From Oscillospiraceae bacterium (GTDB lineage: Bacteria > Bacillota > Clostridia > Oscillospirales > Oscillospiraceae): DNA of 40,593 nucleotides. Shown here one piece after another: positions 2,231 to 33,081 of this stretch (position 1 is the first letter of the stretch; each line of letters starts with the position of its first letter). Made by a program: the position numbers and the translations under genes. The stretch spans positions 1 through 40,593 of the forward strand of contig CADARY010000013.1 of the NCBI GenBank assembly GCA_902790375.1, read 5' to 3'. Under the pieces are notes generated by a model that made no database searches, was not told the origin of the DNA, and worked only from the letters and a program-made list of their open reading frames with translations.

Positions 2231-2231
2231 T

Positions 2232-5587: not shown

Positions 5588-5597
5588 GGAGCACAAG

Positions 5598-6100: not shown

Positions 6101-6122
6101 TAAGAAACGGTGAGGTAGAAAA

Positions 6123-8597: not shown

Positions 8598-8644
8598 TTG
8601 CACAGCAAAAGCATAAATGAAACGAAAGAAAAGGAGAAAGACTT

Positions 8645-10162: not shown

Positions 10163-10181
10163 TAAGATACGATAAACCAGG

Positions 10182-10213
10182 AAAAGCCCCGCGCTTCATG
10201 TGCGGGGCTTTTT
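10182..10213 (+). terminator. Rho-independent terminator after the symporter
   Basis: AAAAGCCCCGC (10182-10192) pairs with GCGGGGCTTTT (10202-10212) across a nine-base loop and ends in a T-run. It limits symporter transcription or attenuates read-through into the 10242 gene. Confidence 0.9.
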
Positions 10214-10241
10214 GCAAGAATGAAGAGGAGAGAGAGGAACC

Positions 10242-12059: not shown

Positions 12060-12083
12060 ACAGCACGGAGTACAGCAGAAGAT

Positions 12084-14351: not shown

Positions 14352-15444
14352 AACGCTCTCCGTTTTTGACGTGTGTGCGGCGGTATTCCTGCGGCGAACA
14401 GTGAAAGCTGCCGCGGAAAACGCGGGAAAAATGGTCGGCGGAATTGTAACCGACGATCTCGGCAATTTCAAACACGGGCAGTTCGGTATTCAGCAGATAG
14501 TCCGCGGCGCGGGACATGCGGATCTGGCGCAAAAGCTCGGTAAAGCTCACGCCGGTGTTCTGCTTGATGAGGGTGCACAGGTGCGGCTTGGAATAGCTGA
14601 ACTGCTCCGCAAGCTCCGAAAGGGTGAGTGTCTGATAGTTTTGCCGGATGGCGTGCAGGATCTGCGAAAAATCCGTCCCCGCCTGAAAACGGTAGACCTG
14701 GGGCGTGTCCCCGGCGGAGCGGAGCACCGAAGCGAACAGCAGATTGATCTGGCTGACGCAGCAGCAGTTGGCGTAAACGTCATTCTTGAAGCACTCGTAC
14801 AGCGCGTAGCGGATACAGTGCCTGATGTTGTCGGTATTTCCCGTCTGGAACAGCAGATAGTTGGGATGATCCGCTTTGAGATTGTTTCGGAAAAAAAGGG
14901 AGAGCGCGTCATCGCGGCTTAAAAGAGAGAAAAACGCCGCCTCAAAGGTGCTGCGCCGCAGCATGATGCAATAGACGCTGCTCTCGTCCCGGAGCTCCAC
15001 ATCGTGGCGGGAGCCGGGCGCGACGAGCACAAAAGCGCCCTCCGAAAGCGTATGGATCTCATCTTCAAAGTGAAACTGACAGCTCCCCCGGGAGACATAT
15101 TCTATCTCCCAAAAATCGTGGCTGTGGATCAAAGGCCTGGAGTAGCGCGGATGACGGAAGATAAAGACATCGCGCTGAAACGGGAACATCACGCCCTCTT
15201 CGACCCGTTCCGGTGAGGCGAGGGCCGGAGGGACCGGAAAGCAGAGATCATCCACAAAGGCTTCAAACTCGTCGGGGCTCATCAGGTGCAGCTTATGACC
15301 CGAATAATCGGCAGAATTCTGCGTTATCTTTCTCTGTCTGCGCAGAGCGGCGATCGCTTCCTGAAACTGAATGCGCTGCCCTGTACTTTGGAAGCTCCTT
15401 GTAAGCTCCTGCTGGAGATCACGGAAAGAGGCATAGAAGGGCAC
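14323..15444 (-). CDS. AraC-family transcriptional regulator with N-terminal cupin domain
   Basis: About 373 residues, with a cupin sensor domain in the middle (HSHDFWEIEYVSRGSCQFHF; VLVAPGSRHDVEL) and a C-terminal double helix-turn-helix (LSELAEQFSYSKPHLCTLIK, then IAEIVGYNSADHFSRVFRG, then CSPQEYR). It probably senses a sugar and activates glycosidase genes. GTG 15444 is chosen because GAGGAG (15452-15457 on the minus strand) lies seven bases before it; the longer TTG start at 15459 would bury that site. The gene is divergent from the 15524 GH78 gene across 79 bases and converges on the 12084 GH78 gene. It is a candidate for binding the shared motif at 1134 and 8494. Confidence 0.9.
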   Translation of the reverse strand: MPFYASFRDLQQELTRSFQSTGQRIQFQEAIAALRRQRKITQNSADYSGHKLHLMSPDEFEAFVDDLCFPVPPALASPERVEEGVMFPFQRDVFIFRHPRYSRPLIHSHDFWEIEYVSRGSCQFHFEDEIHTLSEGAFVLVAPGSRHDVELRDESSVYCIMLRRSTFEAAFFSLLSRDDALSLFFRNNLKADHPNYLLFQTGNTDNIRHCIRYALYECFKNDVYANCCCVSQINLLFASVLRSAGDTPQVYRFQAGTDFSQILHAIRQNYQTLTLSELAEQFSYSKPHLCTLIKQNTGVSFTELLRQIRMSRAADYLLNTELPVFEIAEIVGYNSADHFSRVFRGSFHCSPQEYRRTHVKNGERFIPFEIQKP

Positions 15445-15523
15445 AAGATCACTCCTCAATCGTTTATTATTTATTTATGATATAACAAATGAATAAAAAA
15501 AGCAAGAAGGGACGGCACAGCCT
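15445..15523. promoter_or_regulatory. Divergent intergenic region between AraC regulator and GH78 gene
   Basis: An AT-rich 79-base spacer (CGTTTATTATTTATTTATGA followed by TATAACAAATGAATAAAAAA) separates the two divergent genes and must hold both promoters. TATAAC near 15480 is a possible -10 box for the rightward gene. I see no copy of the motif found at 1134 and 8494. Confidence 0.4.
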
Positions 15524-18298: not shown

Positions 18299-18302
18299 CC
18301 AG

Positions 18303-19823
18303 ATGAAACTATCCCCCCTATTTTCCAACCATATGATTCTCCAGCGCGGCAAGCCTGTCCCCATCTGGGGCGAGGCCGCACCCGGCGCAGAGCTGAGCGT
18401 TTCCATCCAGGGGACGACCTATCCCGCCCGGGCGGATGAGAGTGGCCGCTGGTGTGTCCCGGTCGGCCCGCTGGACGCGCAGGAGAGCGGCACGCTGGAG
18501 ATCACCGCCGGGAGTGAGCGCCTCGTGCTGCGGGACGTGGCCGTGGGCGAGGTGTATCTGGCGGGCGGACAGTCGAACATGGAATTTCTCATGCGCTATG
18601 AGCAGCATTTCGACGCCGAACGCGAACGCTGCTTTGATCCCCAGCTCCGCTTTTACGATGTGCCCGAGATCGCCTATGACGGGCAGGACCGGGATTTCGA
18701 TTACAGCAGGGTCGGCCTGTGGCGCAGCGCGTCCCAAGAGGATCTGGACTATTTCTCCGCGCCGGGATATTATTGTGCCAAGCGGCTCCGTCGGGAGCTG
18801 GGCGTTCCTGTGGGCATCATCGGCCTCAACTGGGGCGGCACCCGGACCTCCGCCTGGATGCGCGAAGACCACGCCCGCGCGATCTGCCCGGAGCAGGTCG
18901 CGGATTTCGAGGCGAGGCTCAAGGGCAAAAGCTTTGAGGAGCTTGCCGCCGAGGCGGGAAAGAGCCCGCTGAACGACCGGGGCTATTCCAGCTGGGACCC
19001 CTTCTCGGAGTTCATCATGGCCGGGACGCCAGGCCCGGAAGAGATCGGCGCCTTCTTTGCGAAGATGGGCGCAATGATCGACCTGAGCAATATCGCGGAG
19101 TTTGCCGACCCGAAGATGGCCCCGGGGATCCTTTACGAGTATATGGTGAAAAAGACCGCGCCCTTCGGGGTGAAGGGTGTACTCTGGTACCAGGGCGAGA
19201 GCGACGACGAGGTCGAGGGCTCCGCCGCCCACTATGCCCAATCGCTGCAAACGCTGATCGCCGACTGGCGTGCGCTCTGGGGCGAGGCGCTGCCCTTCTT
19301 TGTGGTGCAGCTGCCGGGCTTTCGCTCCTGGCTTGCGGTGGTCGGCCGCGACTACCCGCTGATCCGCCAGGCCCAGCAGGAGGTGGCGGACACGGACGAG
19401 AACGTGTTCCTCTGCTCCATCTCCGATCTGGGGCAGGAGCTGGACATCCACCCCAAAAACAAGAAAGATGTGGGCGAGCGCCTGGCCCTGCTGGCCCTGC
19501 GGCATCTCTACGGCAGAGACATCCTCGCCGATCCGCCGCGGCTGCTGTCCTGGGAGAGATTAGGCGGCCGCCTGGTCCTGCGCTTTGCAAACGCGGGGGA
19601 GGGCCTGGCCGTTCCGGGTGAGACGCTCAACGCGCTGGAGATCCGAGCGGGCGGGACTCTGCTGCCCTATGGCTTTAAGCTTTCCGGGGATTCGCTGGAG
19701 CTTTGCACCGAAAGCGCCGGTGAGGGACCTCTCACCGTCTCCTTTGCCAAAGAGAACTGGTATCTGGTCAATCTTTACAACAGCGCGGGTCTGCCCGCGA
19801 TCCCCTTTGAAATTCATTGCTGA
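18303..19823 (+). CDS. SASA-family carbohydrate acetylesterase (sialate O-acetylesterase-like)
   Basis: The 506-residue protein opens with an SPLFSNHMILQRGKPVPIWG beta-domain typical of this family. AGGQSNMEF gives the SGNH-type nucleophile Ser91, GVLWYQGESD lies at about 292-301, and DIHPKNK supplies Asp381 and His383. Relatives remove O-acetyl groups from sialic acids, xylan or pectin; here a plant rhamnoside or pectin-like acetyl group is more likely from context. No signal peptide is visible. A GAGG site overlaps the end of the GH78 gene, so the two are co-transcribed. Confidence 0.87.
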   Translation: MKLSPLFSNHMILQRGKPVPIWGEAAPGAELSVSIQGTTYPARADESGRWCVPVGPLDAQESGTLEITAGSERLVLRDVAVGEVYLAGGQSNMEFLMRYEQHFDAERERCFDPQLRFYDVPEIAYDGQDRDFDYSRVGLWRSASQEDLDYFSAPGYYCAKRLRRELGVPVGIIGLNWGGTRTSAWMREDHARAICPEQVADFEARLKGKSFEELAAEAGKSPLNDRGYSSWDPFSEFIMAGTPGPEEIGAFFAKMGAMIDLSNIAEFADPKMAPGILYEYMVKKTAPFGVKGVLWYQGESDDEVEGSAAHYAQSLQTLIADWRALWGEALPFFVVQLPGFRSWLAVVGRDYPLIRQAQQEVADTDENVFLCSISDLGQELDIHPKNKKDVGERLALLALRHLYGRDILADPPRLLSWERLGGRLVLRFANAGEGLAVPGETLNALEIRAGGTLLPYGFKLSGDSLELCTESAGEGPLTVSFAKENWYLVNLYNSAGLPAIPFEIHC

Positions 19824-19837
19824 AAGGAGAACGTAAA

Positions 19838-20713
19838 ATGGACAATCAGGCTCCGCCGCTGGAGATGATCTTTGGCAACTACATGGCGTGGAAGCTGGAT
19901 GAAACAAGCTGGTGCATCAGCTTCATGGAGGGGACGGAATACATCTACCTGCTGGAGGGCACGGAAAAGGCCCTTCTGCTGGATACCGGCTACGGGATCG
20001 GCCGTCTGCGCGCGTTTGTGGAGACGCTGACCGATAAGCCCGTCATCGTCGCCAATACCCATTTTCATCCGGACCACTCCGCCGGCAACGGCGAATGGGA
20101 GGAGGTATACCTCTCCGCAGGCTGGGAGACGGACGCGCCCTCGGTCCTCAACCCCGGCGCGGGTCCCGTCGATCTCAATACGCTGCCCCATCCGGATTAC
20201 AAAAAGATCATCCTGCATGACGGGGACGTGATCAATCTCGGCGGACGTTCCGTGACCGTGCTGGAGGCGCTGCCCGCCCACTGCAACAGCTCCCTGTTCT
20301 TCGTGGACGAGGGACACCGGATGCTCTTTTCCGGGGATGAGTTTGAAAGTCACCAGACTTTGATGTATGATAATTCCAGCAATCCCGAAGCGCCCTATCA
20401 TGTGGAAAAGCGGATCGAAAATCTGCGCCTGAACGCTATGCGCCTCAAGGAAATCGTCTCCGACGGCTGGTATCTGCTGCCGAACCACAACGGTACTCCC
20501 ATCTCTCTTGCTTACCTGGACGGCTATCTCCAACTGGTGGACTCAATCCATGAAGGCACAGCAGTCATAGAGGACAAGCTCAACCACCGCTTTATCGAGA
20601 TGGACCCCAAGGCTCCCGAGCTCTGCCGCGTGCGCTGCGGGGACGTCAGCATTTTCATCAAGAAACAGGAAGTGCTGAAGATATACGGTAAAAGGAGGGC
20701 CCACGAATTATGA
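19838..20713 (+). CDS. MBL-fold metallo-hydrolase (intact)
   Basis: About 291 residues from ATG 19838, chosen because TGAAAGGAGA lies seven bases upstream. The metal site THFHPDHSAGNG gives His75, His77, Asp79 and His80. Further ligands are likely His in LPAHCNSS, Asp in LFSGDEFESHQ, and a late His in LPNHNG. MBL enzymes of this subgroup hydrolyse esters, lactones, thioesters or phosphoesters; this one's substrate is unknown. Its place between an acetylesterase and a GH3 suggests it processes an imported glycoside or a lactone product. It is a paralogue of the broken copy at 5598. Its stop overlaps the GH3 start (ATGA). Confidence 0.85.
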   Translation: MDNQAPPLEMIFGNYMAWKLDETSWCISFMEGTEYIYLLEGTEKALLLDTGYGIGRLRAFVETLTDKPVIVANTHFHPDHSAGNGEWEEVYLSAGWETDAPSVLNPGAGPVDLNTLPHPDYKKIILHDGDVINLGGRSVTVLEALPAHCNSSLFFVDEGHRMLFSGDEFESHQTLMYDNSSNPEAPYHVEKRIENLRLNAMRLKEIVSDGWYLLPNHNGTPISLAYLDGYLQLVDSIHEGTAVIEDKLNHRFIEMDPKAPELCRVRCGDVSIFIKKQEVLKIYGKRRAHEL

Positions 20714-22968
20714 AGCACGATATTCCCAAAATCCTCTCTCAAATGACGCTGGAGGAGAAGGCCGGAATGTGCTCCGGTTCGGATTTCTGGCATACCAAAG
20801 CGGTGGAGCGCCTCGGCATTCCCAGCGTCATGCTCAGCGACGGCCCCCACGGCCTGCGCAAGCAGGATACAGAAGGCGATCATCTCGGCATCAACGACAG
20901 CATCAAGGCGGTCTGTTTCCCACCGGCGGTGCTTTCCGCCTGCTCCTTTGACCGGGAGCTGATGCGGGCCTTCGGCGATGTGATCGGCAGGGAAGCCCAG
21001 GCGACGGACGTCTCCGTCGTGCTCGGCCCCGGCGTCAATATGAAACGCAGTCCCCTCTGCGGGCGGAATTTCGAGTACTTTTCCGAGGATCCCTATCTCG
21101 CCGGCGAACTGGCCGCCGCCTTTGTCCGTGGCGTGCAGGCGCATCATGTCGGCACGTCGGTAAAACACTTTGCCGCCAACAATCAGGAGAAACAGCGCAT
21201 GACCTGCTCCTCCGAAGCGGATGAGCGCACGCTGCGGGAAATCTACCTGCCAGCCTTTGAGAAGGCGGTCAAACAGGCGCAGCCCTACACGGTCATGTGC
21301 TCCTACAACCGCGTCAACGGCGTCTTCGCCTCCGAGAATGAGTGGCTCCTCACCAAACTTCTGCGGGATGAATGGGGCTTTGAGGGCATGGTCGTGTCCG
21401 ACTGGGGGGCGGTAAACGAGCGCGTCAAGGGCCTCGCCGCGGGAATGGAGCTGGAGATGCCGGCCTCCGGCGGATACACGGATCGGCAGATCGTGGAAGC
21501 CGTCCGAAGAGGGGAACTGGACGAGGCTGTTCTGGACCGCGCGGTGGAACGCATCCTGACGCTGGTCTTCCGCTGGGAGGAAAACCGCGAGAGCCACGCT
21601 TTCACCCTGGAGGACGACCACTGCTTTGCCCGCCGCGCGGCAGAGGAATCGATGGTGCTGCTCAAGAATGAAGGCGTTCTGCCGCTTGATCGGAAAGAGC
21701 GCATCCTGTTTGTCGGTGAGTACGCCGAGAAACCGCGCTATCAGGGCGGGGGCAGCTCCCATATCAACAGCTTCCGGGTATCCGCCGCGCTCTCCGCCGC
21801 GCAGGCTTATTCCCATATACACTACGCCAAAGGCTTCTCCGGCACAGCCGACAGTTACGATGAGGTCCTGGCCGCAGAGGCGCTTGAGGCCGCCGCGGGC
21901 GCGGACAAGGTCGTCGTCTTTGCCGGTCTGCCTGACAGCTTTGAGTCCGAGGGCTATGACCGCAGCCATATGGATCTGCCCGCCTGCCAGAATCGCCTGA
22001 TCGCGGAACTCGCGGCGGTCAACCCGAATGTGATCGTCGTGCTGCATAACGGCTCGCCGGTTGCCATGCCGTGGCTCGGAGCGGTGAAGGGCCTGCTGGA
22101 GGCCTATCTCGGCGGGCAGGCCGGTGGTGAAGCGGTTGCCGCGATCCTCTTCGGAGAGGTAAATCCCTCCGGAAAACTCGCGGAGAGCTTCCCGATCAAA
22201 CTCTCGGACAACCCCGCTTACCTCAACTTTGGGGGTAAAGAAAGGGTGGAATACCATGAGGGCGTCTTTATAGGCTACCGTTACTATGATAAAAAGGAGA
22301 CAGCGGTCAATTTCCCCTTTGGACATGGTCTTAGCTATACCAGCTTTGCCTACTCCAATCTGCGCCTCGACCGGGATACCATGACCGACGGCGGCATGCT
22401 GACGGTCTCTGTGGACGTCACGAACACCGGCAGCTGCGCGGGAAAAGAGACGGTGCAGCTCTATGTCGCGGACAGAACAGATTGCGTTCAGCGGCCTCTG
22501 CGCGAGCTAAAAGGTTTTCAGAAACTCAGTCTGGAGCCCGGCGAGACGAAGACGGCGGTGATGGAGCTGGATGACAGGGCTTTCTCCTGGTATTCGACGG
22601 AGCTCGGCGAATGGTATGCCGCTGCGGGAGAATATGAGATCCTGATCGGCGCTTCTTCCCGTGATCTCCGCCTGAGCGCTTCGGTACGATATGAGACCGA
22701 ACGCCGCCTGCCCGTTCATATCACGCTCAACACAACGGTGGGTGAGCTGATGGAACATGAGAATACCAGACCGCTTGCCCGCCTGATCACAAAGAAAATG
22801 GACGCTTTCTTCGGCGTCGGCGATGACAATTCGGAGACCGGCAAAGAGGCGATCAACGACGAAATGGCGAACGCAATTGTCGCTTCACAGCCCTTGCGCG
22901 GCGTGATCAGCTTTGGTATTATGAGTCCGGAAGAAATGCGGGCGGAAATCGCAAAATACAGTGATTGA
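20710..22968 (+). CDS. Glycoside hydrolase family 3 (beta-glucosidase type) with C-terminal helical tail
   Basis: The 752-residue GH3 enzyme has a TIM-barrel domain (about 1-300) with MLSDGPHGLR (41-50), KHFAANNQE and the nucleophile Asp231 in VVSDWGA. An alpha/beta sandwich (about 310-540) and an FN3-like domain (about 560-660) follow. The last ~75 residues form an extra tail (TTVGELMEHENTRPLARL ... MSPEEMRAEIAKY) resembling that of the 15524 GH78. It most likely removes beta-glucose from the core left after de-rhamnosylation, as in rutinosides or neohesperidosides; that substrate is inferred. No signal peptide is visible. GTAAAAGGAGGG precedes the start, which overlaps the MBL gene. Confidence 0.92.
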   Translation: MKHDIPKILSQMTLEEKAGMCSGSDFWHTKAVERLGIPSVMLSDGPHGLRKQDTEGDHLGINDSIKAVCFPPAVLSACSFDRELMRAFGDVIGREAQATDVSVVLGPGVNMKRSPLCGRNFEYFSEDPYLAGELAAAFVRGVQAHHVGTSVKHFAANNQEKQRMTCSSEADERTLREIYLPAFEKAVKQAQPYTVMCSYNRVNGVFASENEWLLTKLLRDEWGFEGMVVSDWGAVNERVKGLAAGMELEMPASGGYTDRQIVEAVRRGELDEAVLDRAVERILTLVFRWEENRESHAFTLEDDHCFARRAAEESMVLLKNEGVLPLDRKERILFVGEYAEKPRYQGGGSSHINSFRVSAALSAAQAYSHIHYAKGFSGTADSYDEVLAAEALEAAAGADKVVVFAGLPDSFESEGYDRSHMDLPACQNRLIAELAAVNPNVIVVLHNGSPVAMPWLGAVKGLLEAYLGGQAGGEAVAAILFGEVNPSGKLAESFPIKLSDNPAYLNFGGKERVEYHEGVFIGYRYYDKKETAVNFPFGHGLSYTSFAYSNLRLDRDTMTDGGMLTVSVDVTNTGSCAGKETVQLYVADRTDCVQRPLRELKGFQKLSLEPGETKTAVMELDDRAFSWYSTELGEWYAAAGEYEILIGASSRDLRLSASVRYETERRLPVHITLNTTVGELMEHENTRPLARLITKKMDAFFGVGDDNSETGKEAINDEMANAIVASQPLRGVISFGIMSPEEMRAEIAKYSD

Positions 22969-22971
22969 CTT

Positions 22972-23014
22972 TGATCGGAAAGAACAGACAGTCCCGATCA
23001 CTTGATAATATAAT
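22972..23014 (+). promoter_or_regulatory. Candidate promoter with inverted-repeat operator for the GT1 gene
   Basis: TGATCGG (22972-22978) and CCGATCA (22994-23000) form a perfect seven-base inverted repeat with a 15-base spacer. It straddles the -35 position of a -10 box TATAAT (23009-23014). No T-run follows the repeat, so an operator is more likely than a terminator. No good -35 is visible at 17-base spacing. Confidence 0.4.
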
Positions 23015-23034
23015 GATTTGAAAGGAGCATCCCC

Positions 23035-24228
23035 ATGCATATCGCAGTTGTTTCCCTCGGCGCGTTCGGCCATGTCAACCCCACGCTTTCCTTCGTCACG
23101 GAGCTTGTCAAGCGCGGCGTCAAAGTGACCTATTTCACCACGGAGGATTTCCGCCGCATCATTGAACCCACCGGCGCGAAGTTTGTCCCGGTGCCCTCCT
23201 GGATGGCTTCCAACGCTCCCCAGAACGAGAACAAGGAGGGCGGAGACGACGACGGCGGCGTGGCCGCGGTTGTGCCCTTCCTCTTCCTCAACGAGGCGGG
23301 CGCCTACATCGACACCGTGCTGGACGTGCTCAAGGACGACAAGCCCGACGCGATCCTCCACGATTTTGCCGGCATAGCCGGCACCATGGCTGCCGACGTG
23401 CTGAAGGTCCCCAATATCATGCTCTATACGAGCTACCCGTCCAACGATACCTATTCTGTGGCCGAGGGCTTCTCCCATGTCCGCCCCGACCATCCTCTGC
23501 GCATCGCCGCCGATCACATCGCCGACGGCTATGTCGCCAAGTACGGCTGCCGCAAGATGACGGTCAAGGAAATCTTCGACGGTCAGGGCGATCTGAACCT
23601 CGTCATGATGCAAAAGCGGCTGGTTCCCAACTGTGAGAGCTTTGACGACAGCTTCGTCTTCACCGGCGTGCAAATCGGCAAACGCAGCGCCTTCGGCTCA
23701 TGGACGGCGCCCGATAACGGCAAGCCCCTGCTCTATTCCTCTCTCGGCACCGCCTTCAACAACTGGCCGGAATACTATCCCATCCTCTTCGACGCGGTGC
23801 GCGATCTGGATATCAACGTCTTCGCCGCACTCGGCGCGATCGACCCCGAGACGCTGCACGATGTGCCCGCAAATGTGGAGCTCGGCAAGATGGTTCCGCA
23901 GCTCGATATCCTGTCGCAGGCCTCTGTGTTTATTACCCACGCGGGCATGGGCGGTACGGGCGAGGCCATCTACTACGGCGTGCCTATGATTGCCATCCCG
24001 CAGATGGACGAGCAGGCCATCACCGCGGGACAGATCGAAAAGCTCGGACTGGGTGTGGCCTTCCTCGACAAGAACACGATTACGAGCGAAAGCCTCAAGG
24101 CAGCCATTGTGAAGCTGCTGGAGGACCCCGCCTACCGGAATACCGCCAGGGAATTCAGCGAGGATATGCGCTCCCTCGGCGGCGCGCAGGCCTCTGCCGA
24201 CGCGATCATCAAGTTCCTGGAGAAATAA
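23035..24228 (+). CDS. GT1-family glycosyltransferase (MGT/UDPGT type)
   Basis: The 397-residue GT-B protein belongs to the family of macrolide, flavonoid and steroid glycosyltransferases. GAFGHVNPTLSF holds the catalytic His13. The C-terminal donor-binding signature begins ITHAGMGGTGEAIYYGVP and continues to PQMDEQ, with a trailing Asp-Glu-Gln typical of nucleotide-sugar contact. It transfers a sugar from a nucleotide donor to a small hydrophobic acceptor. It is odd inside a catabolic locus, and it may re-glycosylate an aglycone released by the neighbouring glycosidases. TGAAAGGAG precedes the start. It may have its own promoter at 22972-23014, and a GC-rich hairpin follows it. Confidence 0.87.
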   Translation: MHIAVVSLGAFGHVNPTLSFVTELVKRGVKVTYFTTEDFRRIIEPTGAKFVPVPSWMASNAPQNENKEGGDDDGGVAAVVPFLFLNEAGAYIDTVLDVLKDDKPDAILHDFAGIAGTMAADVLKVPNIMLYTSYPSNDTYSVAEGFSHVRPDHPLRIAADHIADGYVAKYGCRKMTVKEIFDGQGDLNLVMMQKRLVPNCESFDDSFVFTGVQIGKRSAFGSWTAPDNGKPLLYSSLGTAFNNWPEYYPILFDAVRDLDINVFAALGAIDPETLHDVPANVELGKMVPQLDILSQASVFITHAGMGGTGEAIYYGVPMIAIPQMDEQAITAGQIEKLGLGVAFLDKNTITSESLKAAIVKLLEDPAYRNTAREFSEDMRSLGGAQASADAIIKFLEK

Positions 24229-24235
24229 GAATAAA

Positions 24236-24260
24236 CGGGCGCGCCCGAAAAGCGCGCCCG
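24236..24260 (+). other. GC-rich hairpin between GT1 and esterase genes
   Basis: CGGGCGCGC (24236-24244) pairs with GCGCGCCCG (24252-24260) across a seven-base loop. No T-run follows, so it is not a canonical terminator. It may stabilise the upstream message or mark a processing site. Confidence 0.55.
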
Positions 24261-24283
24261 CCCAACATGCGGGAGGAAATGAC

Positions 24284-25141
24284 ATGGCCCTTGTGCATCT
24301 GAACTTCAACAGCAAATTCCTTTCCGGCTCCACAGATGTGAATATCATTCTGCCGGACTGCGCCCGCTCGCAGAATCCCGCCGCCTTTTACGGCAGCGGG
24401 AAAAAGTACCCGGTGCTCTGGCTTCTGCACGGCACCTTCGGCGATTACAGCGACTGGCTGCGCAAGACGAATGTAGAGCTCTACGCGGAGGAGAAAAACC
24501 TGATCGTCGTCATGCCCTCGGCCCACAACACGGACTACGCGAACTGGCCGGGCTTCGGCACAGGCTATCAGGTCTTCGACTATCTGACGGGGGAGCTGAT
24601 GCCGCTGGTATACGGCTGGTTCCCGGCGAGTGACAGGCGCGAAGACAACTTTATCGCGGGGCTCTCCATGGGCGGGCGCGGCGCAATCGCCTACGCCTGG
24701 GCTTACCCCGAAAAGTTTGCCGCCGTATACAGCATGTCCTGTGTACCGCAGGATATGCGCCCCGCCGCAGCTGAGCTTGAAAGCGGCGAACCGGCCCCCA
24801 ATCCCTGGGCGGCGCTCGACCGCGAACGCAACCGTCACCGTCTTGAAAATGCGGGCGGCATCGAGGCTTATCTGGCCTCTCCGCAGAATACCTGGGACAA
24901 GGCGAGGGAAGTCGCAAAACGGGATGATATGCCAAAAATGTACTTCTCATGCGGCACGGCGGATTTCGTCATGTACCGGCACTTTAAAGCCTTCCGCGCT
25001 TATGCGGAGGAGCTCGGCCTGAAGGCGGAATTTACCGAGACGGAGGGCTATAATCATGAATGGCGTTTCTGGGAGAAGGAGATCCGGCGTGCGATCGAGA
25101 TTTTTCTCCCGTGCGGCGAGAAAGCCGGGAACGCATTCTGA
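24284..25141 (+). CDS. Alpha/beta hydrolase, tributyrin/feruloyl-esterase-like (esterase D family)
   Basis: The 285-residue protein of the esterase-D/EstA group has LWLLHGTFGDYSDW (45-58), nucleophile Ser128 in GLSMGGRGA, Asp227 in CGTADFVMY and His258 in YNHEWRFWE. Relatives hydrolyse short acyl esters, including feruloyl and caffeoyl sugars and S-formylglutathione. In this setting it could strip phenolic acyl groups from acylated glycosides. No signal peptide is visible. GGGAGG precedes the start. It is followed after 21 bases by an AEC transporter that could carry the released organic acid; that link is inference. Confidence 0.85.
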   Translation: MALVHLNFNSKFLSGSTDVNIILPDCARSQNPAAFYGSGKKYPVLWLLHGTFGDYSDWLRKTNVELYAEEKNLIVVMPSAHNTDYANWPGFGTGYQVFDYLTGELMPLVYGWFPASDRREDNFIAGLSMGGRGAIAYAWAYPEKFAAVYSMSCVPQDMRPAAAELESGEPAPNPWAALDRERNRHRLENAGGIEAYLASPQNTWDKAREVAKRDDMPKMYFSCGTADFVMYRHFKAFRAYAEELGLKAEFTETEGYNHEWRFWEKEIRRAIEIFLPCGEKAGNAF

Positions 25142-26080: not shown

Positions 26081-26094
26081 GCTGCAGAAACAAA

Positions 26095-26128
26095 ACTGCC
26101 GTGCTTTTCAGAAAAAAAGCACGGCAGT
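26095..26128 (-). terminator. Perfect 14-bp hairpin terminator of the 28-codon gene
   Basis: ACTGCCGTGCTTTT (26095-26108) pairs perfectly with AAAAGCACGGCAGT (26115-26128) across a six-base loop. Read on the minus strand it is followed by TTTTGTTT, so it terminates the small minus-strand gene at 26169-26255. Read on the plus strand it lacks a following T-run, but it may still weakly stop the AEC transcript. Confidence 0.8.
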
Positions 26129-26168
26129 GGGACAATATGACGGGGCTTACGCCCTGAATGTGATTCGA

Positions 26169-26255
26169 TCAGAAACGATAATCACAATAGGCAATGCGGA
26201 CATACTCTCTGTAGTCCTCTTTCAGCTCACGGATGAGCTTCTGCATCATGTTCAT
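26169..26255 (-). CDS. Predicted 28-residue small protein
   Basis: A minus-strand frame ATG 26255 to TGA 26169 encodes 28 residues, beginning MNMMQKLIRELKEDYREY and ending CDYRF. It is a single charged, probably amphipathic helix rich in Arg, Glu and Tyr, with one Cys and no membrane segment. A near-ideal AAGGAGG (26263-26269) lies seven bases before the ATG. It has its own -10 box (26349-26354) and a strong terminator (26095-26128), so it looks like a complete single-gene transcription unit. It is divergent from the Crp/Fnr gene, and a Crp/Fnr-like palindrome sits at its promoter. I recognise no family, and function is unknown. Confidence 0.6.
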   Translation of the reverse strand: MNMMQKLIRELKEDYREYVRIAYCDYRF

Positions 26256-26348
26256 GTGATAACCTCCTTGTTTTTGCGCTCTCGTTCAGCACAGAGCTTG
26301 AACCGTTTTTGCCTGGATTCTCGCTTTCCTCTCCCGGAAAGCATGTGT

Positions 26349-26392
26349 ATTATAACGCGTGAACGCGTCCGGGAATGTGCTAAATGACACAT
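26349..26392 (-). promoter_or_regulatory. Promoter of the 28-codon gene with Crp/Fnr-like palindrome
   Basis: The minus-strand -10 box TATAAT occupies 26354-26349, placing +1 near 26342. ATGTG (26375-26379) and CACAT (26388-26392) form an inverted repeat of CRP style (TGTG-N8-CACA in 16 bases). Its centre is at 26383.5, which is -41.5 from that +1, the class II activator position. It overlaps a poor -35 (CATTCC). Two ACGCGT copies (26355-26360, 26363-26368) lie between the elements. The same palindrome is 83 bases before the Crp/Fnr gene, so autoregulation is possible. Confidence 0.6.
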
Positions 26393-26474
26393 GGCACCGC
26401 CAAGGATTCCGAAGCACGAGGACGCCATTTTTTGTGTATCCTGCCGCTTGACATCTAACGGGAGGCGAAGCTTT

Positions 26475-27134
26475 ATGAAGCCAATTCAGGATGCGGCTGT
26501 CGTTGAACAGCTGCTGACAGAGCATGCAATCTGCTCCTGCTTTGATACGCAGGGGCTGTCCTTTTCCGCCTGCGTTTTTCAGAAAGGGGAGCTGATTTGC
26601 TCCCCGCTGAATCCAGCGGAGGACATTCTGTTTTTGATCTCGGGCTCCGCGCAGATGTATGATCTGAGGGAAGACGGAACAAAACTCCCGGTAGACATCA
26701 TCGCAGACGAGGCGGTCATCGGGGATATGGAATTTATTACCGGCTGCCCGACGGGCTTTTTCGTGGAAGCGGCGGAGGACTGCATCATTTTGGCCCTGCC
26801 GCGCGAACGCTTTCAGAACGAGCTGGACCGTGACCTGAAATTTTTGCATTTCCTTTTGAAGGAGATGACCGCGAAATTTATTCATGGCATGCATGTGGAA
26901 ATCGCACCGGCAACGCTGGAGAGCAAGGTGCTGCAATTTTTTTCGCAGAGCGCGGAGACGGGTGAGATCAATGCCGTCGAAAGTTTGCTGTTCCAGCTGC
27001 GATGCGGCCGCCGACAGCTTCAACGTGTATTGAAAAAGCTTTGTGAGGAAGGCAAGCTGGAGCGTCTCGGCCGCGGGCATTACCGCGTTCTTGAAAAGGA
27101 AACGGAGCAGCAGGCGAAGCAGGCAGCTTTTTAA
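26475..27134 (+). CDS. Crp/Fnr-family transcriptional regulator
   Basis: About 219 residues from ATG 26475, chosen for ACGGGAGGCG upstream; the frame's earlier ATG at 26391 lacks a ribosome site and falls in the operator. The N-terminal half is a cyclic-nucleotide-binding-type jelly roll (LISGSAQMYDLREDGTKLP, then IGDMEFITG), lacking the canonical cAMP-contacting motif and thus nearer YeiL-type members. The C-terminal half is a winged helix (CGRRQLQRVLKKLCEEGKLE). The effector is unknown. It is divergent from the 28-codon gene and follows the AEC transporter on the same strand, separated by 394 bases containing that small gene. Confidence 0.87.
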   Translation: MKPIQDAAVVEQLLTEHAICSCFDTQGLSFSACVFQKGELICSPLNPAEDILFLISGSAQMYDLREDGTKLPVDIIADEAVIGDMEFITGCPTGFFVEAAEDCIILALPRERFQNELDRDLKFLHFLLKEMTAKFIHGMHVEIAPATLESKVLQFFSQSAETGEINAVESLLFQLRCGRRQLQRVLKKLCEEGKLERLGRGHYRVLEKETEQQAKQAAF

Positions 27135-27274: not shown

Positions 27275-28225
27275 ATGCAAAAGTCGATCACAGACAGACT
27301 TTCCGAGATTACAGCAGAAGAAAATGAAATTCTGGGCGGAAGAAAAACCATCGACCGCAGTATTTATATGGATGGCAGCCGGGATGTGATCAGCGGGGAG
27401 AAGCTGCTCGAAAAAGGCAAGCTCATCGCCATCCGCCCTCATACCCGCTTTATCGCGTTTCCCGAGCATACCCACGACTATGTGGAGATGATCTATATGT
27501 GTGTCGGCGAGACCCGGCATACGGTCAACGGCAACGCCATCACGCTGCGTCAGGGCGAGCTTTTAATGCTGGGGCAGAACGCACACCAAAGCATTGAACC
27601 GGCAGGGGAGAGAGACATCGCGGTGAACTTCATCGTGCGCCCGGCCTTTTTCTCCGGTACCCTCCCGTTCCTTGGGGAGGAGGAGACACCGCTGCGGCGC
27701 TTTGTGGTCAGTTGTTTGACCGGAGAGAACGAGGCGGGATATCTGCTCTTTCATGTGGCGGAGGTCCTCCCGGTGCAAAACCTGATCGAAAACCTGCTCT
27801 TTACGCTTTTGGAAGATATCCCGAATAAGCGAGGCATTCTGCAGATGACCATGGGACTTCTCTTCGCCCAGCTGATGAACCACACCGAAGCCCTGCAATT
27901 TGAAACCCGGGAGCAAAACACCGTCGTCGCCGTCCTGCGCTATCTGGAAGAAAACTACCGCGACGGAAGCCTGACGGAGATTGCGGGCAGGCTCCACTAT
28001 GAGCTGCCGTCCCTGTCGCGGCTGGTCCGGCAGAAAACCGGAAGAAATTATACAGAGCTTCTCCAGGAGAAGCGCCTGAGTCAGGCGGCGTGGCTGCTGC
28101 GCAACACGGACAGGAAAGTCGATGAGATTGCAGCAGCGGTGGGGTATGAGAATATCAGCTACTTTCACCGGCTGTTTGCCGCACGCTTCGGCCTGTCGCC
28201 CAAAAAATATCGGGACTGCAAATAA
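27275..28225 (+). CDS. AraC-family transcriptional regulator (probable rhamnose-operon activator)
   Basis: The 316-residue protein has an N-terminal cupin (FPEHTHDYVEMIYMCVGE, HTVNGNAITLRQGELLML, NAHQSIEP) and a C-terminal double helix-turn-helix (LTEIAGRLHYELPSLSRLVR, then VDEIAAAVGYENISYFHRLF, then LSPKKYR). By position it is the likely sensor-activator of the rhaB-isomerase-rhaD-fucO operon, which starts 82 bases downstream on the same strand. It may also drive the upstream glycosidase genes. A GAGGGCAGG ribosome site and a full promoter precede it. The inducer is inferred to be rhamnose or rhamnulose. Confidence 0.88.
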   Translation: MQKSITDRLSEITAEENEILGGRKTIDRSIYMDGSRDVISGEKLLEKGKLIAIRPHTRFIAFPEHTHDYVEMIYMCVGETRHTVNGNAITLRQGELLMLGQNAHQSIEPAGERDIAVNFIVRPAFFSGTLPFLGEEETPLRRFVVSCLTGENEAGYLLFHVAEVLPVQNLIENLLFTLLEDIPNKRGILQMTMGLLFAQLMNHTEALQFETREQNTVVAVLRYLEENYRDGSLTEIAGRLHYELPSLSRLVRQKTGRNYTELLQEKRLSQAAWLLRNTDRKVDEIAAAVGYENISYFHRLFAARFGLSPKKYRDCK

Positions 28226-28272
28226 GGACACTTTTTCGGAAAAGTCAAGACCTGTAAAAACGCCCTTCCATC

Positions 28273-28289
28273 CTGTATACTGTATACAG
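28273..28289 (+). promoter_or_regulatory. Perfect palindrome overlapping the rhaB promoter -10
   Basis: CTGTATACTGTATACAG is a 17-base perfect inverted repeat around a central T and contains a -10-like TATACT (28276-28281). The -35 position (TGTAAA) is weak. It lies 18 bases before the rhaB start. It could be an operator or simply a symmetric -10 region. Confidence 0.5.
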
Positions 28290-28307
28290 AACGGGAGGGT
28301 GATTTCC

Positions 28308-29585
28308 ATGAGACACTGTCTTGCAATCGACATCGGCGCTTCCTCCGGCAGGCATATTATCGGATGGATGGAAAACGGCGAGATGAAAACAGAAGAGGTG
28401 TACCGTTTTCCGAACGGCGTGTCCGAGTTTGACGGGCATCTGACCTGGGATATTGACGCGCTTACAGATCACGTTAAGACAGGAATTGAGAAAGCGCGGG
28501 AGAGTTTTGAAAACGTCGTGAGCCTGTCAGTGGACACTTGGGGTGTGGACTATGTGCTGATGAAGGGAAACGAAGAAGTACGTCCCTGCTATGCCTATCG
28601 GGACAGCCGGACAGAGGCCGTGATCGACCAAGTGCACGAAAGAATGGATTTTTCCGAGCTCTACCGCCGCACGGGCATCCAGTTCCAGCCCTTCAACACC
28701 CTCTATCAGCTCTATGCTGACAAACAGGCCGGACGCCTCGAGGGCGTGACGGATTTCCTGATGATTCCGGAGTATCTTATGTATAAGCTCTGCGGGGTCA
28801 AGTCCCACGAGTACACCAACGCCACCACCGGCGGCATGGTGAGCGCCGAGACTGGGGAGTACGATCCTGAAATCATCAAGGCCCTTGACCTGCCGGAGCA
28901 TCTTTTCCACAAGCTGCAGAAGCCAGGCACTGTGATCGGCGAATATGATGGCATCAAGCTCGTCCTCTGTGCCACTCACGATACCGGCTCCGCGGTAGAG
29001 GGTATCCCGATGGACGAGGACGCGCCCTATATCTCCTCCGGCACTTGGAGCCTGCTGGGCGTCAAGACGCCGAAGTCCCTCACCGATGCGGCTTCCAGAG
29101 AGGCCAACTGGTCCAACGAGGGCGGCGTAGGCTATAACCGATACCAGAAAAACATCATGGGCATGTGGCTGGTAAACCGCCTGCGCGCAGAGCTCTGCCC
29201 TGACAAGCCCTTCGGCGAGATCGTTGCCGAGGCGGAAGCCAGCCCCTTTGAGGAAACCGTGGACGCAAACGCCCAGTGCTTCCTCGCTCCCGAAAGCATG
29301 AGGGCCGCCTTTGACGGCGCACTGAGTACAAAGCCCGAAACCGTAGGCGACTACTTCCGCTGTGCCTATAAGAGCCTGGCGCAGAGCTACCGGGACGCGG
29401 TGCGGGAACTGGAGCACAACACCGGCAAACATTATGACAGCATCTACATTGTCGGCGGCGGCGCGAAGAACGCCTTCCTCAACCGCCTGACCGAGGAGGC
29501 CAGCGGGAAAAAGGTGATCGCCCTGCCCATCGAAGCGACCGCAATCGGCAATCTGAAAATACAAATCCAGGCGGATCAATCATAA
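28308..29585 (+). CDS. rhaB: Rhamnulokinase
   Basis: The sugar kinase of the FGGY/RhaB family phosphorylates L-rhamnulose to L-rhamnulose-1-phosphate. Visible signatures are AIDIGASSGRH (ATP/phosphate loop), SVDTWGVDYVLM, YRDSRTEAV, TGIQFQPFNTLYQL, ATHDTGSAV and YIVGGGAKNAFLNRLTEEA. ATG 28308 is chosen for GGGAGGGTG nine bases upstream; an in-frame start at 28122 would run into the AraC gene. At 425 residues it is some 40-60 residues shorter than well-known RhaB proteins, ending soon after PIEATAIGN, where relatives carry a further helix. It is the first gene of the rhamnose operon, and the next start is 15 bases downstream. Confidence 0.92.
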   Translation: MRHCLAIDIGASSGRHIIGWMENGEMKTEEVYRFPNGVSEFDGHLTWDIDALTDHVKTGIEKARESFENVVSLSVDTWGVDYVLMKGNEEVRPCYAYRDSRTEAVIDQVHERMDFSELYRRTGIQFQPFNTLYQLYADKQAGRLEGVTDFLMIPEYLMYKLCGVKSHEYTNATTGGMVSAETGEYDPEIIKALDLPEHLFHKLQKPGTVIGEYDGIKLVLCATHDTGSAVEGIPMDEDAPYISSGTWSLLGVKTPKSLTDAASREANWSNEGGVGYNRYQKNIMGMWLVNRLRAELCPDKPFGEIVAEAEASPFEETVDANAQCFLAPESMRAAFDGALSTKPETVGDYFRCAYKSLAQSYRDAVRELEHNTGKHYDSIYIVGGGAKNAFLNRLTEEASGKKVIALPIEATAIGNLKIQIQADQS

Positions 29586-29600
29586 ACAGGAGGTTGGACC

Positions 29601-31022
29601 ATGCTAGTCAACACCAAAGCACGCGTCGGCGTGTTCTCCATTGCGCTGGGCGCGTATCTGCCCCAGTTCCCCAGCCTTGTGCCGGAGTTTGAGGCACAGT
29701 ACGCAGACTTCAAAAAGCGCATCCCCGAAAGCGTTGAGCTTATCGACGGCGGCATCGTCACCACCAAGGAAAAGGCCATGGCCGCAGGCGACAAGTTCCG
29801 CGCGGCTGACGTCGATCTCGTGATCCTCCAGCTTTTGACCTACGCCACCTCCTACAATATGCTCCCTGCTGTGCGGGATCTGGACGTACCCGTGGTGCTG
29901 GTCAACCTCCAGAAAAAGAAGGCACCTGACTACGCCAATACCGACACTGCCACATGGTTGGGAGAGCTCTATGCCTGCGGCGCCGTGGGCGAGATGGTGG
30001 CAGACCTCGAGCGCGCGGGCAAGCGCCACGCCGTCATTACCGGTGTGGTCGAGGGCGGCGACCCCGCAGTAGACGCCGAGATTGCCGACTGGTGCAAAGC
30101 CGCCCAGGCGCGCAGACGTTTCCGCGACACGAACCTCGCCCAGATCGGCAGACCCTACCCCGGCATGATGGACCTGTACATTGACGAGACCAACCTCTAC
30201 CACCGCATGTGGCTCTACACCAAGCAGTTTGACTGGGAAAAGATGTGGGCAATCGCCGACGATATCACCGATGAGGCTGCCATCCGTGCCAAAGCCGAGG
30301 ATATCCTCAATACCTTTGATATCGAGGGCGGCGGCACGGTCGAAAAGGTCTGGGATATGGCCAAGTACGTGGTTGCTTTTGAGCAGTGGGTCAAAGACGA
30401 GCAGCTCGGTTTTGTCGCCTCCCACTATGACGGCTTCGCGCAGGGCGTGGCAGGCAAGCTCGACTCCATGCTGATCCCCGCCTTCTCCATGCTCATCAAG
30501 CAGGGCACCGCCTGCGCCGTCGAGGGTGACATCAAGGTCGCCATGGCCATGAGCATTCTCAAGACCATCTCCGGCATGGGCCAGCTCAGTGAGATGTACT
30601 CCATCGACTTCGATGAGGACATTTGCATCATCGGCCACTCCGGCTCCGGTGATGCGGACATCTCCAAGGCCAAAAAGCCCACCATGAAAATTGTCCCCGT
30701 CTTCCACGGCAAGACCGGCGGCGGATATCTGACACAGTTCTATCCCGCTGAGGGGCCCGTGACCTATCTCGGCATCACCCAGGATAAAGACGGACACTTC
30801 AAATTCGTCGCGGCGGAGGGCGTCAACGAGCCCGGACCAATCTTCACCTTCGGCGACACCAATATGCGCACCCGCTTTACCTGCGGTGCGCGTGAGTTCT
30901 GCAACAAGTGGAGCGAGGCCGGCCCCACCCACCACATGGCAGCCGCCTCCGGACGCCACATCGACACCATCCTCAAGGTTGCCAAGATCTTCAACGTCCC
31001 CGTGGATATTATTACGAGATAA
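29601..31022 (+). CDS. L-arabinose/L-fucose-isomerase-fold protein, putative L-rhamnose isomerase substitute
   Basis: The 473-residue protein has the AraA/FucI fold. The N-terminal Rossmann-like domains carry VDLVILQLLTYATSYNMLP and GVVEGGDP. Candidate metal ligands in the C-terminal part are Glu308 (ACAVEGD), an acid near 331-339 (LSEMYSIDFDED), His346 (IGHSG) and His444/445 (GPTHHMA), echoing the Glu-Glu-His-His set of AraA. Sitting between rhaB and rhaD, it most likely isomerises L-rhamnose to L-rhamnulose, the step done elsewhere by RhaA or RhaI, which are different folds and absent from this window. The reaction is inferred from context. AACAGGAGG precedes the start. Confidence 0.82.
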   Translation: MLVNTKARVGVFSIALGAYLPQFPSLVPEFEAQYADFKKRIPESVELIDGGIVTTKEKAMAAGDKFRAADVDLVILQLLTYATSYNMLPAVRDLDVPVVLVNLQKKKAPDYANTDTATWLGELYACGAVGEMVADLERAGKRHAVITGVVEGGDPAVDAEIADWCKAAQARRRFRDTNLAQIGRPYPGMMDLYIDETNLYHRMWLYTKQFDWEKMWAIADDITDEAAIRAKAEDILNTFDIEGGGTVEKVWDMAKYVVAFEQWVKDEQLGFVASHYDGFAQGVAGKLDSMLIPAFSMLIKQGTACAVEGDIKVAMAMSILKTISGMGQLSEMYSIDFDEDICIIGHSGSGDADISKAKKPTMKIVPVFHGKTGGGYLTQFYPAEGPVTYLGITQDKDGHFKFVAAEGVNEPGPIFTFGDTNMRTRFTCGAREFCNKWSEAGPTHHMAAASGRHIDTILKVAKIFNVPVDIITR

Positions 31023-31026
31023 ACGA

Positions 31027-31068
31027 CACCTCATCCGGCCTTCGGCCACCTTCCCTCGTGGGGAAGGC
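31027..31068. repeat. Intergenic palindromic repeat element
   Basis: Between the isomerase and rhaD lie two adjacent hairpins, GGCC-TTC-GGCC (31037-31047) and CCTTCCC-TCGTG-GGGAAGG (31049-31067), in a unit starting CACCTCATCCGG. I recall this kind of unit as a dispersed intergenic repeat in Oscillospirales genomes; only one copy occurs here. It could act as an mRNA stabiliser or partial terminator inside the operon. Confidence 0.5.
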
Positions 31069-31092
31069 ATAATTGAAAAGGAGATCATAATT

Positions 31093-31905
31093 ATGAAAGA
31101 CATTCTTACTGCCCCCTTCATGGTCGAGATGATCCGCACCACCACCAACATGTACAACCACGGCTGGGATGAGCGCAACGGCGGAAACATCAGCCTGCTG
31201 CTGGACGAGTCCGAAGTAAAAGAGTATCTTGACACCGAAAAGGTCCTGCGCACCATCCCCACCGGCTTCTCCGCCCCGGAGCTGGACGGGAAGTACTTCC
31301 TCGTCACTGGCACCGGCAAGTATTTCAAGAACGTCCAGTATGCGCCCGACGTGAACCTCGGCCTTGTCCGCCTCACCGACGGCGGCGAGAATGCCGAGCT
31401 TCTCTGGGGCTATAGCGACGGCGGCAAGTTCACTTCCGAGTTCCCCGCCCACATGATGAGCCATGTGGCGAGACTCAAGGTCGATCCCGAGAATCATGTG
31501 GTCATGCACTGCCACCCGGCCAATCTGCTGGCCATGACCTATGTTCACACCCTGGACGATCGGGAGTTTACCCGCACCCTCTGGCAGATGTGCACCGAGT
31601 GCATCGTGGTCTTCCCGGACGGCGTGAACGTGCTGCCCTGGATGCTCTGCGGCACCAACGAGATCGGCGAAGCCACCGCCGAGAAAATGCTGACCGCCCG
31701 CCTCGTGGTGTGGTCCCTGCACGGCATCTACGGCGCGGGCAAGGATCTGGACGAGACCTTCGGCCTCATCGAGACCGCTGAGAAGGCCGCCGAGATCTAC
31801 ATGAAGATCGCCCACCTGCCGCGCGTGAACACCATCACGGACAACATGATGCACCAGCTCGAGGCGCGTTTCGGCGTCAAGGGCCGCGAGGGCTATTTGG
31901 ACTGA
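31093..31905 (+). CDS. rhaD: Rhamnulose-1-phosphate aldolase
   Basis: The 270-residue class II aldolase cleaves L-rhamnulose-1-phosphate to DHAP and L-lactaldehyde. WDERNGGNIS (25-34) is the phosphate-binding signature. Zinc ligands His139 and His141 (MHCHPANL) and His210 (SLHGIYG), with the catalytic Glu116 (TSEFPAH), match the E. coli enzyme nearly position for position. AAAAGGAG and ATG 31093 define the start; the in-frame extension to 30886 overlaps the isomerase and is not used. It is co-transcribed with rhaB and fucO, with a palindromic repeat just upstream. Confidence 0.94.
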   Translation: MKDILTAPFMVEMIRTTTNMYNHGWDERNGGNISLLLDESEVKEYLDTEKVLRTIPTGFSAPELDGKYFLVTGTGKYFKNVQYAPDVNLGLVRLTDGGENAELLWGYSDGGKFTSEFPAHMMSHVARLKVDPENHVVMHCHPANLLAMTYVHTLDDREFTRTLWQMCTECIVVFPDGVNVLPWMLCGTNEIGEATAEKMLTARLVVWSLHGIYGAGKDLDETFGLIETAEKAAEIYMKIAHLPRVNTITDNMMHQLEARFGVKGREGYLD

Positions 31906-31932
31906 TATTCAATTTGAAAAGGAGATATTACC

Positions 31933-33081
31933 ATGGCTAATCGCATCGTACTCAATCCCGTATCCTATCACGGCGTCGGCGCCGTCAAAGAGATCGGCGG
32001 CGAGCTTTCCCGCCGCGGCTATAAGCGCGCCTTCATCGCCTCCGGCCGCCACGTGGTCAAGTCCGGCGAGATCAGGAAGATCACCGACGTGCTGGACGAG
32101 ATCGGCGTCGCCCACACCTTCTACACCGACATTAAGCCCAACCCCACCATCGAGAACGTCCAGAACGGCGTCAAGGCCTTCAAGGAATTCGATGCCGACT
32201 GCATCATCGCCGTGGGCGGCGGCTCCGTTATGGACACCTCCAAGGCCATCGGCATCATCGTCAACAACCCCGAATTTGCCGACGTCCGCTCCCTCGAGGG
32301 TGTAGCCCCCACCAAGCAGCATGCGGTCTTCACCATCGCCGTCCCCACCACCGCCGGCACCGCTGCCGAGGTCACCATAAACTATGTCATCACCGACGTG
32401 GAGAAAAAGCGCAAGTTCGTCTGCGTCGATACCAATGATATCCCCGAGGTCGCCGTCGTCGATCCCGAGATGATGTACTCCATGCCCAAGCCCCTCACCG
32501 CCGCCACCGGCATGGACGCCCTGACCCACGCCATCGAGGGCTATATCACCAAGGGCCACTGCGCCATCTCCGACATGTTCCACCTCGAGGCCATCCGCCT
32601 GATCGCAAAGAATCTGCGCGCCGCCGTCGAGAATGATGAGGCAGGCCGCGAGGGCATGGCGCTCGGCCAGTATATCGCCGGCATGGGCTTCAGCAACGTC
32701 GGCCTCGGCATCGTCCACTCCATGGCCCACGGTCTGTCCGCTTTGTACGACACGCCCCACGGCGTCGCCTGCGCGATCCTGCTGCCCCTGGGTCTTGAGT
32801 ACAACATGCCCGTCTCCGGTGAGCGCTACCGCGCCATCGGCCGCGCGATGGAGGTCCCCTACATCGACACCATGAACGATGAGGACGCCGCGAAGGCCAC
32901 CATCGCCGCCGTCAAGAAGCTGGGCGCCGATGTGGGCATCCCCGCCGACCTCAAGGAGATCGTGAAAGACGAGGATGTGCAGTTCCTGTCCGAGTCCGCT
33001 TTTGCCGACGCCTGCTGCCCGGGCAACCCCCGCGACACCAGTGTCGAAGAGATCTCCGCCCTCTACCGCAGCCTGATGTAA
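31933..33081 (+). CDS. fucO: Lactaldehyde reductase (iron-dependent alcohol dehydrogenase)
   Basis: The 382-residue group III alcohol dehydrogenase has an NAD-binding AVGGGSVMDTSKA (93-105) and iron ligands Asp195 and His199 (GMDALTHAIEGY), His262 (GIVHSMAHGLSALYD) and His276 (TPHGVACA). It reduces L-lactaldehyde to 1,2-propanediol, regenerating NAD+ during anaerobic rhamnose fermentation. It matches FucO in length and motifs. AAAAGGAG precedes the ATG. It is the last gene of the operon, and a strong terminator follows. Confidence 0.93.
   Translation: MANRIVLNPVSYHGVGAVKEIGGELSRRGYKRAFIASGRHVVKSGEIRKITDVLDEIGVAHTFYTDIKPNPTIENVQNGVKAFKEFDADCIIAVGGGSVMDTSKAIGIIVNNPEFADVRSLEGVAPTKQHAVFTIAVPTTAGTAAEVTINYVITDVEKKRKFVCVDTNDIPEVAVVDPEMMYSMPKPLTAATGMDALTHAIEGYITKGHCAISDMFHLEAIRLIAKNLRAAVENDEAGREGMALGQYIAGMGFSNVGLGIVHSMAHGLSALYDTPHGVACAILLPLGLEYNMPVSGERYRAIGRAMEVPYIDTMNDEDAAKATIAAVKKLGADVGIPADLKEIVKDEDVQFLSESAFADACCPGNPRDTSVEEISALYRSLM

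Follow-up and report, generated by a model that had tools for sequence, protein, structure and literature searches.

Proteins of fewer than 30 residues usually go unnoticed, and it is hard to find out what they do. The locus described here raises the question of whether a minus-strand reading frame of 28 codons, lying beside a Crp/Fnr-family gene in a stretch of 40,593 nucleotides from an uncultured, probably ruminal Oscillospiraceae bacterium (this whole stretch is called the window), encodes a real small protein, and whether that protein is controlled by the neighbouring gene. Should this be the case, the predicted activator next door, a precisely defined operator and the surrounding pathway genes would offer direct routes by which to look for its expression signal and its partner. 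On the evidence below we consider it likely that the reading frame forms a one-gene unit for a 28-residue protein, which would be activated by the divergent Crp/Fnr regulator and lies within a rhamnoside cluster.

A small-protein gene and its predicted promoter

The initial annotation had placed on the minus strand a TATAAT element, an AAGGAGG seven bases before an ATG, a 28-codon reading frame and a terminator, and a sequence scan located every one of these parts. They are listed here with the surrounding genes; G080 and G343 are two other genomes with related regulators, and the G080 pair denotes its homologous small-protein and regulator genes.

1286..25141, plus strand: rhamnoside/hemicellulose cluster (by Pfam/NCBIfam); eight genes have homologues near the G080 pair, at 42-86% identity
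25163..26080, plus strand: AEC-type transporter gene (PF03547), convergent; homologue near the G080 pair, 52% identity
26095..26128, minus strand: predicted intrinsic terminator, 15-bp stem, loop of 4, T-rich tail TTTGTTTC; between the small-protein gene and the convergent AEC gene
26169..26255, minus strand: small-protein reading frame, 28 codons plus stop, MNMMQKLIRELKEDYREYVRIAYCDYRF; ATG at 26255, stop ending at 26169; homologue in G080
26263..26269, minus strand: Shine-Dalgarno sequence AAGGAGG, 7 bases before the ATG at 26255; GAGGAGG precedes the G080 reading frame
26323..26342, minus strand: hairpin GCTTTCC/GGAAAGC of 7 pairs, beginning at the predicted +1; found by a scan of the uncut window and also in folding
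26349..26354, minus strand: -10 element TATAAT, read from the sequence; TACAAT in G080 and TATGAT in G343, at equal distance from the operator
26375..26392, minus strand: putative operator ATGTG-TCATTTAG-CACAT; centre 26383.5, which is -41.5 if +1 is 26342
26475..27134, plus strand: Crp/Fnr-family regulator gene; cNMP-binding fold PF00027, 4.7e-15
27275..33081, plus strand: RhaS-like AraC regulator, rhamnulokinase-like, sugar isomerase-like, class II aldolase and Fe-ADH genes

The terminator and its T-run are present as annotated, but the stem, given earlier as 14 bp, has 15 pairs in our scan.

When 400 genomes drawn from the family were searched with the peptide, 21 genomes, the own genome included, gave matches at E up to 1. 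The sole strong match besides the own genome was found in G080 (E 1.4e-4, 58% over 26 residues), with 15 of 28 residues identical in the alignment. G080 represents a second genus, and its peptide homologue lies at the orthologous place, divergent to the orthologous Crp/Fnr gene, in a unit complete with its own Shine-Dalgarno sequence, -10 element, operator and terminator. The initial annotation had suggested looking for homologues linked to Crp/Fnr genes and computing dN/dS on them. The two genes differ at 10, 8 and 16 codon positions (first, second and third, of 28 each), mostly at third positions, and the Nei-Gojobori (NG86) proportions are pS 0.76, which is saturated, against pN 0.33. In simulations with an equal number of random changes, a mean of 8.3 identities was kept, and 15 were reached in 1 of 20,000 runs. 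The computed conservation thus bears out the claim of a real small-protein gene, and its presence in a second genus is well supported by these comparisons.

The peptide is known from these two assembled genomes of uncultured bacteria. The unit also occurs in the MAG record RUG14869 (L030), where the regulator is 100% identical; since its genome is either identical or very close to the own one, it does not count as independent evidence. RUG names denote rumen genomes. Nineteen further weak matches (E 0.09-0.96) were treated as chance as a group, 18 of them lying in open frames of 59-776 residues and one in a 22-residue frame. A peptide profile run on eight regulator-bearing genomes gave one 7-residue match, which was also judged to be chance. 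There was no match to the peptide in plasmid and phage records, nor in Pfam and NCBIfam at E 0.001, collections which cover proteins this short poorly.

Outside the coding region, the window and G080 share 12 of 16 operator positions, 5 of 6 in the -10 element and 6 of 6 in the first stem arm; the 21-bp spacer is identical at 6 of 21 positions, with its length exactly kept. A stem at the first base appeared in folds of the window, G080 and G343 transcripts, the start of each having been assigned by us as 6 nt past the -10 element, and the first 60 nt of the G343 transcript paired differently when folded alone than in the longer fold. This 5' stem may stabilise the mRNA. From the assigned start, the leader is 87 nt long in the window and 59 nt in G080.

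A stand-alone transcript of about 250 nt that is predicted to open with a hairpin and to close with a strong terminator has the outline of a small RNA, and CRP-type factors often control small RNAs, which we counted in favour of a dual-function or purely regulatory base-pairing RNA in which the reading frame would be secondary. We find this unlikely, as the reading frame is kept between genera with its third-position bias, the leader differs both in length and in sequence beyond the first stem, and Rfam gave no match at gathering thresholds. A tRNA search returned nothing.

The palindrome ATGTG-N8-CACAT had been described as centred 41.5 bases upstream of the predicted +1, and the coordinates agree. 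With +1 itself a prediction, the dyad occupies the position of class II Crp/Fnr sites, near -41.5 and covering -35. A scan of 26000-26600 found no sigma-70-like promoter pair, in agreement with the missing -35 element. On its own the palindrome is weak evidence, because TGTGN8CACA, found a single time in the window where 0.39 would be expected, occurs at least once in 31 of 100 shuffled windows, and the one-mismatch form is not enriched in the window (7 against 10.1 expected). The longer pattern TGTG-N8-CACA-N21-TANNNT has a single match in the own assembly (3.1 Mb, 88.6% complete), at the small-protein promoter, and its reversed control has 0 matches in the same 3.1 Mb; the description of a single target refers to this exact pattern, without mismatches or other spacings genome-wide. 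Given how common the short palindrome is, a chance reading frame might have come to lie beside a chance palindrome. However, a second genus has a homologous peptide in a like arrangement, and the spacing between operator and promoter is equal in many regulator loci. We rejected such a coincidence on the G080 homologue and the single full-pattern match, and regard it as extremely improbable.

The regulator and its putative operator across related loci

The divergent gene is of the Crp/Fnr type, as annotated: besides its PF00027 match, the regulator profile aligns with Crp-family structures across its two parts (for example 1o5l, 7.4e-16, profile positions 33-201), namely the cNMP-binding-type beta-roll and the C-terminal DNA-binding domain that define the superfamily. 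Its start is most likely the ATG at 26475, preceded by GGGAGG (26460-26465), and not the ATG at 26391 of the longer frame, so that the operator falls in the intergenic region. The best NCBIfam match, nearly full length, is the YeiL model NF007707, and at 60.7 bits against a cut-off of 180 the regulator is not YeiL by that model. No match to the regulator was found in plasmid records.

CRP-type proteins hold the cAMP phosphate with an Arg-Ser pair, and FNR carries an N-terminal cysteine cluster for its [4Fe-4S]. The Arg-Ser pair is absent from the regulator, the Vfr-aligned positions being Thr and Gly/Val/Asp. No cysteine before position 42 is common to the regulators of the own genome (G000), G442, G080 and G343, Cys 22 being common to G000 and G343; the fourth FNR cysteine lies outside this comparison. 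Since neither the pair nor the N-terminal cysteines are kept, cAMP and an FNR-type Fe-S cluster are both unlikely as the signal.

Two details concern the starts of these genes. Upstream of the regulator, G080 and G343 share TTGAAA...CAAAAT (by eye), of which the window (26448-26474) retains just a TTGACA, lying 21 bases ahead of the start codon. The regulator frame of G442 (L060:53-120) has no ATG soon after GGAGGT, and translation seems to begin there at a non-ATG codon, CTG or another.

Regulator homologues were collected by family, genus, order and GTDB-wide searches, and 23 were analysed from 22 genomes, the own genome contributing two; 11 of the 22 matches of one regulator search and two Exiguobacterium loci (28% identity) were left out. 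The upstream region was readable in 22 loci, the exception being G442, whose contig begins 52 bases upstream of the regulator. A (T)GTG-N8-CAC(A) site was found upstream of the regulator in 15 of the 22 and was absent in seven. With offsets of 18-24 allowed, a TANNNT followed the site, facing away from the regulator, at 21 bases in 12 loci and at 22 bases in two (14/22 altogether); G158 has the site without a -10 element. The loose pattern also matched once more in G080 and twice more in G343, where one of the two matches has TANNNT at 21. The consensus of 12 sites is TGTGCCATATGGCACA, with the variant sites of G457, G415 and G468 left out. For three regulators on a sister branch (L043, L045, L046) the site reads GTGACA...TGTCAC or GTGACA...CGTCAC instead, and a TATACT stands exactly 21 bases further on. 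The gene faced is a GFO/IDH/MocA gene in L043 (by Pfam) and in L045 (by eye), or else another reading frame.

In 12 genomes picked for their regulator homologues the exact pattern gave eight matches, six of them adjoining the regulator, and the reversed control gave one. The pattern had been derived from loci already seen, including G000, G080, G343, G046 and G491. Five of the six adjoining loci were among those known beforehand, G400 was the new one, and G575, G652, G677 and G783 followed later. The two matches away from the regulator lie before a reading frame in G491 and before a cytochrome c552 gene (PF02335) in G442 (G442:C124:50539-50581, L053:1501-1543; TGTG-N8-CACA-N21-TATAAT). The latter may be chance or a second target. 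The G442 regulator is 74% identical to that of the window, and the peptide was not found in this genome. Searches of the G080 genus (18 genomes) and of the G343 genus (7 genomes) found the regulator in those two genomes only, and a second family draw of 350 genomes, from another centre and searched with a regulator profile, appeared to repeat the same genomes.

The gene divergent to the regulator is MatE (Pfam) in seven loci (G575, G491, G046, E07, G677, G400 and G652), where it has a short leader, GFO/IDH/MocA (Pfam) in the two tested, G783 and G457, and a LysR gene in G158. In G343, whose regulator has 50% identity, it is an unrelated 85-residue reading frame with no Pfam match (L024:850-1104). 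The computed conservation of operator, 21-bp distance and divergent layout, kept though the downstream gene differs, supports the earlier proposal that the small-protein gene is controlled by its neighbour, and class II activation by the neighbouring regulator is well supported at this level. The same annotation had envisaged a two-gene regulator/small-protein system; the pair is present in the window and in G080, but it is not obligatory, as the closely related regulator of G343 faces the 85-residue frame and more distant ones face MATE genes.

In a midpoint-rooted tree of 23 rows, the small-protein loci of the window, G080 and G343 form one clade with G442 (support 99/98), and among the analysed loci the small-protein target is confined to this clade. 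Ten other rows fall together with the clade to one side of a branch with weak support, namely seven MATE loci, G783 and two LysR loci (G213 by eye). The clade does not depend on the labels, but the shuffle figures of the remaining groups do. Outside the clade, the tree label GfoIdh is wrong for G455, and the labels of G415 (GfoIdh) and G143 (MATE) were given by eye. We infer from this distribution an old switch whose output gene was exchanged, as well as the direction of that exchange.

The rhamnoside cluster

The initial annotation had taken the two genes to be unlinked to sugar use. This is contradicted by their surroundings, as the pair lies among homologous GH78, GH2, GH3, GH43, MFS and AEC genes in both genera. 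The window cluster (1286..25141) encodes a BD-FAE esterase, two GH43, three GH78, a GH2, an MFS_2 transporter, a SASA esterase, an MBL protein, a GH3, an MGT-type glycosyltransferase and an esterase. The genes at 27275..33081 probably serve L-rhamnose catabolism, with the RhaS, kinase and isomerase matches falling below the NCBIfam cut-offs; no counterpart of any of them turned up in the 27 kb that were read of the 49-kb G080 contig. In the same 27 kb, nine homologues surround the peptide and regulator (MFS 86% identity, GH43 83%, esterase 80%, GH3 76%, GH78 75%, GH2 74%, BD-FAE 66%, AEC 52%, MGT 42%; the regulator itself 54%), in a different gene order and with other genes intervening. The MFS gene of the cluster was found (E up to 1e-150) in three of 350 family genomes, the own genome, G080 and G276, and the 23-kb contig of G276 has this gene and a 31% AraC match but lacks both the peptide and the remaining cluster. 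None of the cluster was present in 14 kb read of G343. By this computed linkage, the pair belongs to a rhamnoside-utilisation cluster common to two genera.

The gene order also bears on whether the reading frame is a leader peptide or attenuator of a downstream operon. In G080 the BD-FAE, GH78, GH2 and other genes do follow the peptide and its terminator on the same strand. In the window, however, no same-strand gene follows, the terminator being succeeded by the convergent AEC gene, and on this gene order we rejected a leader peptide here. By eye, the two peptides share no stretch made up of one residue type. We regard attenuation as very unlikely.

Two further gene sets in the window deserve mention. 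A macrolide-family (MGT) glycosyltransferase gene (23035-24228) lies within this glycoside-degrading cluster and has the 42% homologue near the G080 pair; its product could act on plant phenolics. At 35494-40292, genes for an FtsX/MacB-type permease, an ABC ATPase, a histidine kinase and a response regulator stand in a row, a set which we take to resemble a Bce-type peptide-sensing module.

Peptide properties, proposed mechanism and known systems

Over residues 3-24 the window peptide has a helical hydrophobic moment of 0.63 (shuffle P 0.002), and the G080 peptide one of 0.34 (P 0.04, which is marginal). Both are near neutral (net charge +1 and -1). We think it probable that the peptide forms an amphipathic helix and, in the cytosol, binds a partner protein. 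SgrT, MgtS and AcrZ are likewise tens of residues long, stand under specific regulators and often act on a transporter. AcrZ and MgtS span the membrane, unlike the window peptide, in which no membrane-spanning stretch is seen by eye.

A short, Tyr-rich peptide encoded beside its own regulator, with a possible Bce-like ABC/two-component set 9 kb off, could also be secreted, as a pheromone or bacteriocin. It has no evident signal sequence (by eye), though, and is near neutral, the ABC/two-component genes have no match in the 27 kb read of the G080 contig, and the related regulators with other targets argue against the peptide as the ligand of the regulator; secretion therefore seems quite improbable to us.

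For a cytosolic small protein, the mechanism would be as follows. A dimer of the regulator, answering a signal probably other than cAMP or an FNR-type Fe-S cluster, would bind ATGTG-N8-CACAT, the one exact-type site of this assembly, whose centre at -41.5 takes the position where a -35 element would otherwise lie. The bound regulator would then recruit RNA polymerase to TATAAT, a class II activation suggested by the geometry kept across genera. The mRNA would carry the short 5' hairpin, be translated from AAGGAGG/ATG and end at the terminator. Its product, a near-neutral amphipathic helix, would bind a cytosolic partner, perhaps a transporter or enzyme of the cluster. In most relatives outside the small-protein clade the same switch faces a MATE efflux pump, and here its output would be the small protein.

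A bolder version, which we put forward tentatively and think rather doubtful, is that a Crp/Fnr switch with an efflux pump as its usual output was rewired to a new 28-residue helical protein as its sole recognisable output, and that this protein tunes a transporter or enzyme of the rhamnoside cluster. If this were true, the small protein would replace the pump and do its work in response to the same plant-derived signal.

Nothing on this regulator/small-protein pair appeared in the titles among the literature matches listed, which does not prove its absence in print, and no paper on the regulator YeiL was among the matches listed. The small reading frame aatS of enterotoxigenic E. coli is driven by a CRP class II promoter and resembles the window gene in having an activator site over the -35 position, a small reading frame as target and a ribosome binding site (PMC4892627). 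The aatS activator is cAMP-CRP and the frame lies inside one member of a convergent gene pair (PMC4892627), whereas the putative window activator, which is not a cAMP-type protein, is encoded divergently beside its target.

The seven MATE-linked Crp/Fnr loci share with the window unit operators near the consensus, 21-22 bp to the -10 element and the divergent layout, and differ in what they face, a MATE transporter gene preceded by a short leader in place of a small-protein gene. One regulator-promoter arrangement is thus kept while the gene it faces is swapped between a MATE pump, an oxidoreductase, an 85-residue frame and a 28-residue protein. The 85-residue frame of G343 sits behind a class II promoter layout like that of the window and may represent another uncharacterised small protein.
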